35,145 bases of DNA, taken from a virus. Each line of letters starts with the position of its first letter. Positions within the stretch are counted from its first letter, which is position 1. The position numbers were made by a program, and so were the translations under genes. Below the pieces are notes generated by a model that was not told the origin of the DNA, made no database searches, and saw nothing but the letters and a program-made list of their open reading frames with translations. This document shows positions 26,273 through 32,999 of this stretch, one piece after another. The DNA lies in IMG/VR virus record IMGVR_UViG_3300021957_000141, positions 1-35,145 of that record; one strand, 5' to 3'.

Positions 26273-28462
26273 TCAAACTTCCTCCCAATTGATCCATTCG
26301 CCGACCACTACGCACGGCACATCTCTTCCGCTTCGGCTGTCTCTTATCTCTGCGACTTTGAGGTTGCCTGTGCTGATCCACTTCTTGACGATTGCTTTTG
26401 CCTTTGCTTTGTCCCCTGGCTTTTCTGTGTCGAGGTCGAGCTGTTCTGCGACTGCATTGCCGATCCAGTTCTTTGCTCTGATGTCTGAGCGGTATGCCTT
26501 GTCGTTCTCCTCTGCCTTGCCGACTGCTCTTTGGACATCGTAGAGGTCTTTGGTTGTTACGCCGTCGAATAGATCAGGCAGCTTAAATTCTGTGGCTACG
26601 CCTATGTGTTCACCGTTTGCTATTTCGACTGAGACCATGCGGCGGTATGTTGCCTTGTCTGATGGCGGTGCAAGGTTTGCTTTGCCATCGTCCTGGCGGA
26701 ATATGCCGAGTGCTTCTTGTTCGTCCACACCAAGTGCCATTGCGTCTTCTGGAGTGATCCTGTTTATCACTCTTGCCGCTCTTGCTGCACCGATCAGACT
26801 GCCTGCGCCGCGCACTGAATCAACCGTTGCGTCTTCTCCGTTGCCTTTACGGATGTGATGCACAAGCTGTACTGAGCTGTTGGTGTCTCTTGCCAGCTTC
26901 CTGAGCATTGATACGACTGCCTGGATGCTGCCATTGTTGTTCTCATTAACCAGGTGGGCAGATATGAATGGATCTAATATTACGACACCTATGTTGTTCT
27001 CTTTGATCTTGCGGATCATAAAGGCCAGCAGCTCATCGTTCTGGATCAGGCCGTCCCTGCCTTCTGCTGCCAGGGTGATCTGCATGGTGTCCTCACCATC
27101 CATGAACAGCTTGCCTTTGATGTCATCTGGCGTGAGGCTATAGTGCTGCATGGCTGCTATGGTTCTCATTTGAAGTTCTGAGATCGGATCTTCCAAATTT
27201 ATGACCCATGTGTTGCACTGCTCCTTGACCCTTACGCCAAGCAGGTCTTTGCCTGTCGATATTGCCAGTGCTTCCACAATGATTGCTGATGTCTTGCCAA
27301 TGCCGCCGGCAGATGCTGTGACGCTAATGTATTTCTTGATGTAGTCGTATCCATAGACCCACTCTCTGCGGGGCAGTGTGAGCGCATCAAACATTTCGTA
27401 AGGCGTGGGCCATTCATTGCCTGTATCAGGCTCTGTGTAGCTCTGCGTTGGCTCTGTGGCTATTTGCAGGGTCTGGTTCTGCTGCTCCATGCGCTCGGCT
27501 GCTGGGTCTGGCGGTGGCGTCCAGCCTTTTGCTCTGGCTCCGTCGATTGCCTTCTGCACCTCTGCCCTTGTTTCGTCCACTGTGTAGCCGCCAAGGGTAA
27601 AGCCATCTGTGATCGCGTGGATTTCTTCGTCGGCTAGGCCTTTGTTGACGTATGATCCAACCAGGCGCACCATATTGTGATGCCAATCCTCGCCTGCTAG
27701 CACGTTCTGGACTGCCAGTTGCCTGTCCATTGCTTGCTGGCCGAGGTCTATGCTCATTGTGCTAGCAGCCTGTGGCTCTGCCTTTGGGAATGCGCGCATC
27801 ATGCGTTCAAACTCTACTGGTTCTCTGTCTGTTGAGAACTCTGTCCGCATTGTGACCAGCTCTGGAACATATCCTTTGTCTTGTTTCTTTTGGTTGGGCC
27901 ATGAGACTGTGCCTGCCACGCGCATGATGCGTGATGGGTTAACGACTGCCGCATCTGTTTGGAGTGAGGCGGCGATTGCTTTTTGTACATCACGCCATGC
28001 TTGCATGTTTTGCACTGGCTCTTCGAGCCGCCAGTATGCGTGGCCTCTTGCGAATGGCGTTGTTCCTGTCTTGATCGACATTGTGAACTTTGGGCCTGCG
28101 AAAGACAGGATATTTTCCATTGCGCCTGCTGTGTCTGCGTCTGCGAAGCAATAAAACGCGGCTAGGATGTCTGTGTCTTTGGCTGCTTGGCCTGCCGGTA
28201 TCTCTATGATTGGGTCAATTGGATTGATGCACATGTATATGTTTTGCTTGGCAGCGTTCATTGCCTCGGCATGCTGGGCTGCGTCTTCTATGTTTTTTAG
28301 TGCAAATCTTGCGGCGTTTGCTGATCCAGATTGCGATATAGAACGTATCTCTATGAGCGGTTGGCCTACAGTGTTCCAATTCTCTGTAATCTGTGCTATG
28401 AACTGCTTAATGATTTCGGTTTTGGGAGCCATTTCCATTTGTTCTTCCACTTCCATTTTCAT
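26273..28462 (-). CDS. Primase-helicase fusion, RepA/AAA_25-type
   Basis: The 729-aa protein starts after a strong GGGGAGGAA site. The N-terminal domain (about 60-200) resembles the archaeo-eukaryotic type primase-polymerase of plasmid and phage replicators: an acidic pair in FADAD (D108, D110), RGHAYW with H141, and a VVNPSRIMRVAGTVSWPN segment. The C-terminal domain is a RepA/RecA-fold helicase: Walker A AGGIGKT (385-391), Walker B VVILD (493-497) and QLVHHIRKG (532-540). The last ~100 residues probably form a winged helix. It would open and prime the origin next to it, then hand over to the host polymerase, since no DNA polymerase is encoded here. Confidence 0.85.
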   Translation of the reverse strand: MKMEVEEQMEMAPKTEIIKQFIAQITENWNTVGQPLIEIRSISQSGSANAARFALKNIEDAAQHAEAMNAAKQNIYMCINPIDPIIEIPAGQAAKDTDILAAFYCFADADTAGAMENILSFAGPKFTMSIKTGTTPFARGHAYWRLEEPVQNMQAWRDVQKAIAASLQTDAAVVNPSRIMRVAGTVSWPNQKKQDKGYVPELVTMRTEFSTDREPVEFERMMRAFPKAEPQAASTMSIDLGQQAMDRQLAVQNVLAGEDWHHNMVRLVGSYVNKGLADEEIHAITDGFTLGGYTVDETRAEVQKAIDGARAKGWTPPPDPAAERMEQQNQTLQIATEPTQSYTEPDTGNEWPTPYEMFDALTLPRREWVYGYDYIKKYISVTASAGGIGKTSAIIVEALAISTGKDLLGVRVKEQCNTWVINLEDPISELQMRTIAAMQHYSLTPDDIKGKLFMDGEDTMQITLAAEGRDGLIQNDELLAFMIRKIKENNIGVVILDPFISAHLVNENNNGSIQAVVSMLRKLARDTNSSVQLVHHIRKGNGEDATVDSVRGAGSLIGAARAARVINRITPEDAMALGVDEQEALGIFRQDDGKANLAPPSDKATYRRMVSVEIANGEHIGVATEFKLPDLFDGVTTKDLYDVQRAVGKAEENDKAYRSDIRAKNWIGNAVAEQLDLDTEKPGDKAKAKAIVKKWISTGNLKVAEIRDSRSGRDVPCVVVGEWINWEEV

Positions 28463-31770: not shown

Positions 31771-32162
31771 TGGTCAAAGTAGTAGACGTTGAAATAAACT
31801 TCATGTCATTTAAACGCGCATTTAATCGGGAACCCACCGAGGCAGAGATGGGCGCCCTTATGAGACTGAACGCCAAAAGAAACGAGGGGCAATGCGGCGG
31901 CAAGAATACAATTGCAAAGATTGACAGGCGCCTTGCGTCAGCATCCAAGGCTCGGGATTACATTAAAAGCCAGCCGCTCAAGCGCAACATCGTAGTCACC
32001 CGCACTGCTTGGTCTGTTAATTACCTGCTCAAGTTGGAATTGAACAAATCACAAATCATGGACGTTCTGCACATAAGTGAGATCGCTTATGATCGGGCCG
32101 TCAAGCAATACAATCTGCCGCGTGACGGGATTGAGAGAAGGTTTAAAAATGAAAAGAGATGA
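31770..32162 (+). CDS. Putative helix-turn-helix early regulator, 130 aa
   Basis: The product is basic. Its C-terminal third (LNKSQIMDVLHISEIAYDRAVKQYNL, about residues 91-116) reads as a helix-turn-helix: a first helix, a short turn, and a recognition-type helix. An N-terminal segment resembles a homing-like or DNA-binding helix pair. It is the only gene in the early block with a credible DNA-binding motif, so it is the best candidate to act on the TTGCTAGCAA operators, although this is inference. The start overlaps the previous stop (TAATG). Confidence 0.55.
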   Translation: MVKVVDVEINFMSFKRAFNREPTEAEMGALMRLNAKRNEGQCGGKNTIAKIDRRLASASKARDYIKSQPLKRNIVVTRTAWSVNYLLKLELNKSQIMDVLHISEIAYDRAVKQYNLPRDGIERRFKNEKR

Positions 32163-32418
32163 GATATTAAAAGAAGCAGCGCGCATAATCAGCACCGAAA
32201 GGGCAGACGATTATGGGCCGGCAGATGAATCGTTCAAGCGCATTGCTCGGCTTTGGACATCTTATCTTGATGTGGCTGTTAGCCCTATGGACGTTGCCAA
32301 CATGTATATTTTAAGCAAGGTGCAGCGAACTCTCATGTCTCCAGCTAAAGAGGATACATGGCTGGACATCTGTGGCTATGCTGCATTGGCAGGCGAGATG
32401 ATGACCAATGAAAAGTAA
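32149..32418 (+). CDS. DUF6378-like protein
   Basis: From the ATG at 32149 (GAGAGAAGG upstream) the 89-aa product has the family pattern ISTERADDYGPADESFKRIA, LWTSYLDVAVSPMDVANMYI, SKVQRTLMSP and DTWLDICGYAALAGEMM. I recall this as DUF6378, widespread in phages; the DDYG and DICGYAAL blocks resemble the all-alpha MazG-like nucleotide-hydrolase fold, but activity is unproven. It overlaps the preceding gene by 14 bp and the following one by 11 bp. Confidence 0.75.
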   Translation: MKRDEILKEAARIISTERADDYGPADESFKRIARLWTSYLDVAVSPMDVANMYILSKVQRTLMSPAKEDTWLDICGYAALAGEMMTNEK

Positions 32419-32518
32419 ATTTACAGAACATGAGGTTCATATAGCTGGCCTAGTTGGGGCTATCTTTGGCTTCATTAGCGGCGCTGGCTTGATGGCGCTC
32501 ATTGCAATTATATTCTAA
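32408..32518 (+). CDS. 36-aa membrane peptide, last gene of the early operon
   Basis: ATG at 32408 codes a short polar start (MKSKFTEHEVH) and one glycine-rich membrane helix (IAGLVGAIFGFISGAGLMALIAIIF). It overlaps the DUF6378-like gene by 11 bp and ends 6 bp before a strong terminator. The function is unknown. Confidence 0.6.
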   Translation: MKSKFTEHEVHIAGLVGAIFGFISGAGLMALIAIIF

Positions 32519-32524
32519 CAAAAA

Positions 32525-32553
32525 CCCTCGCAACCAAAGTTGCGAGGGCTTTT
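32525..32553 (+). terminator. Intrinsic terminator of the rightward early operon
   Basis: A perfect 10-bp stem CCCTCGCAAC / GTTGCGAGGG with a 4-nt loop is followed by CTTTTGT. The plus strand also has AAAA before the stem, so it may work weakly in the other direction. Confidence 0.9.
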
Positions 32554-32605: not shown

Positions 32606-32634
32606 TTGATTGTTAAATCATTGCAAGATAAAAT
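32606..32634 (+). promoter_or_regulatory. Candidate promoter for a small RNA
   Basis: TTGATT (32606-32611) and TAAAAT (32629-32634) are exactly 17 bp apart, a good sigma70 match. No gene on the plus strand follows; a strong terminator ends the unit at about 32807. Confidence 0.55.
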
Positions 32635-32640
32635 ATCGTG

Positions 32641-32807
32641 TGAGTGGCCGCTTTAACGAATGTGACGCATTTGGTAGAGCGCGACCAACAAAAACCGACC
32701 AAGCCCCGTGGCATCGAATGGTTGTATGTTAGTGGAAAGCCACCCACTAGATATTTATAGCAGCGCATAAAATTGCTTCAAGCTTTTTATGCGCTGCTTT
32801 TCTTTTT
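32641..32807 (+). ncRNA. Candidate phage small RNA (about 165 nt)
   Basis: The unit runs from the promoter at 32606-32634 to a terminator: a 13-bp stem GCAGCGCATAAAA (32760-32772) / TTTTATGCGCTGC (32785-32797) followed by TTTTCTTTTT. It has no credible coding frame; the longest ATG frame near its end gives 14 codons without a ribosome binding site. Possible local hairpins are TTGGT/ACCAA around AGAGCGCG and TAGTGG/CCACTA around 32732-32751. It does not fit a tRNA. Its end overlaps the last 20 bp of the convergent 70-aa gene. Ends are inferred. Confidence 0.5.
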
Positions 32808-32999
32808 ATTCATCATGGAAATTCGCTTGCCTTTTGCAACGGCTTCGCTCTTCGATGACGCTCCCCAAGCTTTCAAAGATTTAAGGAGCGGCGTGTCCGT
32901 GCCGTCTTTCTTCTTTGTCGGCCCAGGCATCTTGCCCATGCGTTGCAGGAAGGCTGCGCGCCGGCCACTGTTGCCGGTTCTTTCTGGTGACGCGCCCAT
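32787..32999 (-). CDS. Small basic conserved phage protein, 70 aa
   Basis: The product MGASPERTGNSGRRAAFLQR continues with MGKMPGPTKKKDGT, then PLLKSLKAWGASSKSEAVAKGKRIS and a lysine-rich end. I recognise it as a recurrent podovirus protein (MPGPT...LLKSLKAWG), of unknown function, possibly a DNA-associated virion protein. It is the last gene of the leftward late operon and its stop lies inside the stem of the small-RNA terminator. Confidence 0.7.
   Translation of the reverse strand: MGASPERTGNSGRRAAFLQRMGKMPGPTKKKDGTDTPLLKSLKAWGASSKSEAVAKGKRISMMNKKKSSA

Follow-up and report, generated by a model that had tools for sequence, protein, structure and literature searches.

A conserved structured element directly after stop codons in marine phages, apparently made independent in one lineage

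Does the gap between two convergent operons of a phage encode a small RNA peculiar to that phage, or does it hold part of something more widespread? The question is raised by an IMG/VR virus record of 35,145 bases (the whole stretch analyzed, hereafter the window), which encodes a portal protein about 59% identical to those of pelagiphages of the HTVC010P group and in which a first-pass annotation proposed a complete, stand-alone transcription unit. The early operon of the window, on the plus strand, ends with a gene for a 36-aa membrane peptide (MKSKFTEHEV...IAIIF; 32408-32518, with the stop codon at 32518), and the late operon, on the minus strand, includes the lysis genes and, at its end, a 70-aa gene (32787-32999, minus strand) with a partial, below cut-off match to DUF6321. 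The two operons are separated, in this order, by a terminator, a promoter match, a folded segment and a stem with a T-rich tail, all on the plus strand. GC skew tracks gene strand only.

The signals on which the proposed unit was built are present. The intrinsic terminator of the early operon maps to 32525-32548, and the sigma-70-like promoter consists, as described, of the -35 box TTGATT (32606-32611), a 17-nt spacer and the -10 box TAAAAT (32629-32634), with 9 of the 12 consensus positions matched. Transcription is predicted to start at about 32640, the first base of the closing helix described below, given the usual distance between the -10 box and the start site (6-7 nt after the box). The region contains 10 promoter-like sites in 3.5 kb compared to 5.0 +/- 2.5 in shuffled sequences, and the promoter match by itself is not significant; the promoter is supported by its position and by its sharing between lineages, not by the match score. 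The downstream stem (32759-32798) has 14 bp plus a small inner stem, rather than the 13 bp originally given, and together with the T-rich tail (to 32807) also covers the end of the convergent 70-aa gene, the 3' end of which overlaps the stem. The statement that no frame lies in between was nearly right: a 40-codon frame starting with TTG (plus strand) and a 51-codon frame starting with ATG (minus strand) exist, but relatives carry indels that are not multiples of three.

The 175-nt RNA from this region is predicted to fold more stably than 200 of 200 shuffled sequences (z = -4.7; z = -2.9 without the terminator stem). The folded segment is a structured element (32636-32757, plus strand) that we assign to class A, with a covariance-model match of 106 bits (72 bits with a broad model). 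It starts with the invariant motif UCGUG (32636-32640), which in relatives comes after a stop codon, and is closed by helix P1 of 8-9 bp, formed in the window by GUGAGUGGC (32640-32648) and GCCACCCAC (32739-32747). Within P1 lie the P2 hairpin (32649-32681), with outer strands CGCUUUA/UAGAGCG, inner strands GAAUG/CAUUU and the apical loop UGACG, and a variable P3 arm with an A-rich stretch (32682-32738; ACCAACAAAAACC). This architecture of UCGUG, P1, P2 with a conserved apical loop (UUGGCRC or UGUCGGG) and a variable arm recurs across the element copies, the smallest form being 64 nt long (L038, L494, L506 and L509), and class B shows GNRA-like GCGA loops on the plus strand. Pairing between the loops of P2 and the third arm seemed possible in the short forms and was discarded as inconsistent across classes.

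The comparative analysis that had been suggested as a check strongly supports, at the sequence level, a structured RNA. Double-sided changes exceeded those in every shuffle, with 36 against 13.5 in one alignment and 136 cells against 31.5 in a second one, the latter consisting of 106 rows, 7 of them weak antisense matches, and being model-fitted, hence biased toward structure. P1 is swapped as a whole between lineages with the pairing kept (GTGGGTGG, GCGGGTGG, GTGGGCGG, GTGGGGAG, GCGGAGAGC, TGGGGGCG): most copies have GTGGGTGG/CCACCCAC, and the alternative pairs are GCGGGTGG/CCACCCGC, GTGGGCGG/CCGCCCAC, GTGGGGAG/CTCCCCAC and GCGGAGAGC/GCTCTCCGC as well as GTGGGGCGAG/CTCGCCCCAC, GTGGGCTGCG/CGCAGCCCAC and TGGGGGCG/CGCCCCCA. 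Because the first scans had specified P1, we also ran a scan blind to P1, in which only TAATCGTG, a gap and the P2 loop of class D were fixed; a perfect P1 of at least 8 bp was found at 47-80 nt in 21 of the 24 matches, compared to 2.5% of random sites with a perfect partner of at least 7 bp. In a close relative with a 97% identical lysin (L008; 1345-1450, minus strand), the same place is occupied by a non-homologous inverted repeat, TCGTGAGGCCAGC...GCTGGCCTCACGA, which has nothing but UCGUG and the closing helix in common with the other copies.

Scanning viral contigs in IMG/VR for patterns of the element yielded about 150 copies in phage contigs, although a few of these could be due to chance or to antisense reading. 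The stop codon of an open frame lies 0-8 nt ahead of the element in 145 of 157 copies. The same is seen close to the window: in most relatives the element directly follows the stop codon of the 36-aa peptide gene, and in an alignment of 19 distinct intergenic sequences from the window and its close relatives, the terminator and the promoter are missing in most, which run from the early-gene stop codon directly into TCGTGTGRGTGGC...GCCACYCAC and on to the shared terminator stem. By interior sequence, several classes can be told apart, all with the same outline. Most carriers have neither a promoter nor an intrinsic terminator at the element; in these, the early mRNA ends with the element or contains it as an internal segment. 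The downstream gene is convergent in 124 of 148 copies and co-directional in 24.

Class D departs from the prevailing arrangement in that the element lies between variable, co-directional early genes, with about 35 nt separating it from the next start codon; this codon and a ribosome-binding site belong to a constant stretch that comes after the element. In the class D loci L255, L256, L266 and L281, the consensus of this stretch is approximately CGCGACAAGATAACAAAACAGAAAGTGAGTGCAATG, leading into variable genes; the downstream genes include one for a helix-turn-helix-like protein (L255) and one for a cytosine-methylase-like protein (L256). Near the element in another class D phage (L259), a protein resembling a homolog of an early gene product of the window (32077-32418; PF19905/DUF6378 domain) is encoded.

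The element is a single-copy feature shared across unrelated gene modules. Of 23 phage contigs between 23 and 36 kb long, the window included, 21 carry one copy, and the model finds none in the other two; its secondary matches in three contigs (G014, G017 and G020) come from reading that one site in antisense, apart from a single weak match in G014. At least two different head modules occur among the carriers, whose structural, replication and lysis modules differ. For example, the gene for a RepA-like primase-helicase, which in the window (26273-28462) encodes a 729-aa protein with an AAA_25 (RepA-like) domain and matches to primase/helicase families, was matched in the window, G009, G018 and G021 and not in G005, G008 or G019. 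The model found no element in HTVC010P, Greip or Skadi-5, and there was no significant match between three element classes and the cultured phages in INPHARED. Pattern matches in bacteria were regarded as chance, as the model finds none in three of those genomes, nor in 385 genomes of that class, in searches run without a positive control.

Against this background, the claim of a stand-alone unit appears valid for the window phage and two sister lineages, which have the terminator and the promoter in common, and fails in nearly all other carriers, where the element follows a stop codon within the early transcription unit and no promoter intervenes. The upstream terminator is confined to the window lineage and close recombinants: it is shared, along with the promoter, only with L085/L006 and L110/L111, and the promoter hexamers are identical in all three lineages. 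Behind this terminator-promoter cassette, the three lineages carry three different classes of the element, and all three lineages with an early-operon terminator before the element have the promoter aimed at P1. The element's own downstream terminator is kept in 11 of 11 window-type relatives. Thus, judging from these comparisons, the promoter and the upstream terminator appear to be local additions, the conserved part being the fold at 32636-32757, and what the window shows seems to be a widespread element that became independent in this lineage, not a small RNA peculiar to the window phage.

The annotation further pointed to complementarity between the 3' end of the RNA and the mRNA end of the 70-aa gene. 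The complementarity is real (32787-32807) and is mere overlap of convergent transcripts. As predicted from sequence, the neighboring convergent genes fall into several unrelated families, among them those of lysozymes, peptidases and amidases, and class D has no such gene. Because the neighboring gene is not conserved, the overlap is incidental, and antisense action on the 70-aa gene as a conserved function is not supported by these comparisons.

As far as Rfam 15, INPHARED and the literature are concerned, the element is previously undescribed. The window and 18 carrier loci gave no Rfam 15 matches at gathering cut-offs, the region and a few loci gave only chance-level or terminator-like matches at a relaxed E-value, and no description of the element was found in the literature. 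A GGTAGAGC stretch recalls the D-arm of tRNAs; it is not conserved outside class A, and ARAGORN finds no tRNA or tmRNA.

Several known systems resemble the element in part. Small RNAs derived from 3' UTRs of bacterial mRNAs combine an Hfq-type seed with a terminator; like these, the element is an mRNA 3' end in most carriers and has its own promoter in one lineage, but it has a three-way-junction fold and most copies lack an intrinsic terminator. Integron attC sites are variable-length inverted repeats located after a gene, with a short conserved core and a freely varying stem, and occur in arrays with an integrase. The element shares the gene followed by a variable-length inverted repeat (roughly 60-140 bp), the short conserved core, the varying stem and the link to gene insertion, but differs in having one full copy per genome, imprecise junctions and a different core, and no integrase was recognized among the proteins scanned, which represent part of the genes. 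The element resembles the packaging pRNA of phi29-type phages, likewise phage-encoded, in length (about 120 nt), in its paired ends and in having two arms; however, its carriers encode TerL-type terminases (large-subunit matches) and several unrelated structural modules, and there is no match to the Rfam pRNA. The element is most comparable in kind to candidate structured RNA motifs from comparative genomics (e.g., PMC2864571) and to the phage and marine families of Rfam, which were likewise found by covariation in phages and marine metagenomes, are intergenic and have no known function; it differs from these in lacking an Rfam 15 match, in being fixed to stop codons and in being present in a single copy per phage.

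As to which strand acts, sequence statistics alone point both ways. Fold energy shows no strand preference. The wobbles in P2 favor the plus strand (44 G.U versus 13 A.C read on that strand), and the imperfect pairs of P1 point to the minus strand, with 32 A.C versus 1 G.U on the plus strand (11 versus 0 without the innermost pair), because A.C on the plus strand would be G.U on the minus strand. The rewired promoter and the constant link to plus-strand stop codons, class D included, favor an RNA from the plus strand.

The best-supported reading, which we hold tentatively, is an early phage RNA that acts in trans and is recognized through UCGUG and the P2 loop. The element would work as an RNA that is produced early, either as the 3' terminus of the early mRNA or by excision from within it, and its conserved unpaired loops would mediate the action, most likely by contacting a protein of the host or the phage. 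In the window lineage, the terminator would have severed the element from the early mRNA, and the promoter aimed at the first base of P1 would restore synthesis, yielding an RNA of about 165 nt. Action in trans is favored because a cis-only 3' UTR element needs no promoter of its own after separation from the mRNA.

A serious but less probable rival is that the element is a cis-acting 3' end structure, which takes the place of an intrinsic terminator in shielding or setting the 3' ends of the early and the convergent late mRNAs. This would fit the 124 of 148 copies located between convergent genes and the dearth of intrinsic terminators downstream (9 of 118 copies that are not window-type, with 3.6 expected by chance); moreover, P1 is palindromic, so both convergent transcripts would end in a stem. 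However, P1 is not directly followed by a U-tract and thus does not qualify as an intrinsic terminator (GC-rich stem with an immediate U-tract), and a plain stem has no need of conserved apical loops. A terminator role is also hard to reconcile with the window, in which the element is kept between two flanking terminators with its own predicted promoter, and the class D copies, inside operons about 35 nt before the next gene, argue against a pure terminator.

A second serious rival, slightly less probable again, is a site acting at the DNA level, with the hairpin serving as single-stranded DNA in replication initiation or attC-like cassette recombination and genes entering at its 5' edge. The relevant evidence consists of truncated 5' remnants of the element (6-17 nt, TCGTGTGGGT...) that lie directly upstream of extra genes, which are then followed by the full element: L085:1895-2330, L297:4320-4720, L107:3138, L110:6930 and 7311, and L405:3684 (0-based starts, listed strand). 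The informative remnants are the longer truncated ones, chosen by eye from the scan output; the count of bare TCGTG after stop codons (127 versus 251 for permuted words) is uninformative. These remnants show what appear to be scars of gene-cassette entry at the 5' edge of the element. Genes resembling GIY-YIG and HNH homing endonucleases adjoin the element in L202, L360 and L042, which suggests that the junction attracts mobile genes. The variation of both neighboring genes, the single copy per genome and the mixed wobble direction in P1 and P2 are also compatible with a DNA site. Nevertheless, the remnant junctions are imprecise, there are no arrays of full copies, no integrase was recognized among the scanned part of the proteins, and a promoter aimed at P1 would be senseless for a DNA site; given that the replication modules of the carriers differ, the distribution hardly fits an origin that depends on a single replication protein.

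A leader or attenuator, in which a ribosome terminating at the neighboring stop codon governs the folding of P1 and hence expression of the downstream gene, appears improbable: P1 begins inside the footprint of the terminating ribosome and class D has the constant ribosome-binding region and start codon just downstream, but most copies have no downstream co-directional gene, and the window has no upstream frame that stops at the element. A chance fold combined with ordinary intergenic conservation, which might be suspected given that the element interior alone is no more stable than shuffled sequences, can be dismissed, being refuted by the scan blind to P1 and by the replacement of P1 with different, fully paired sequences in many lineages.

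The trans-acting early RNA, then, is the reading that we prefer. In a broader form that we put forward with considerable doubt, unrelated marine podoviruses would share a single-copy RNA class that is cut from the early mRNA at the stop codon and usurps a host function in trans, and early-gene cassettes would be swapped at this very element. The element spans lineages with differing structural, replication and lysis genes and therefore probably serves a host-related need rather than one phage machine. Abundant marine phages carry a strongly conserved fold in a position locked to the stop codon, and the window lineage, with a terminator and a promoter brought in, represents a natural rewiring experiment in which the choices between RNA and DNA and between cis and trans action are directly testable.
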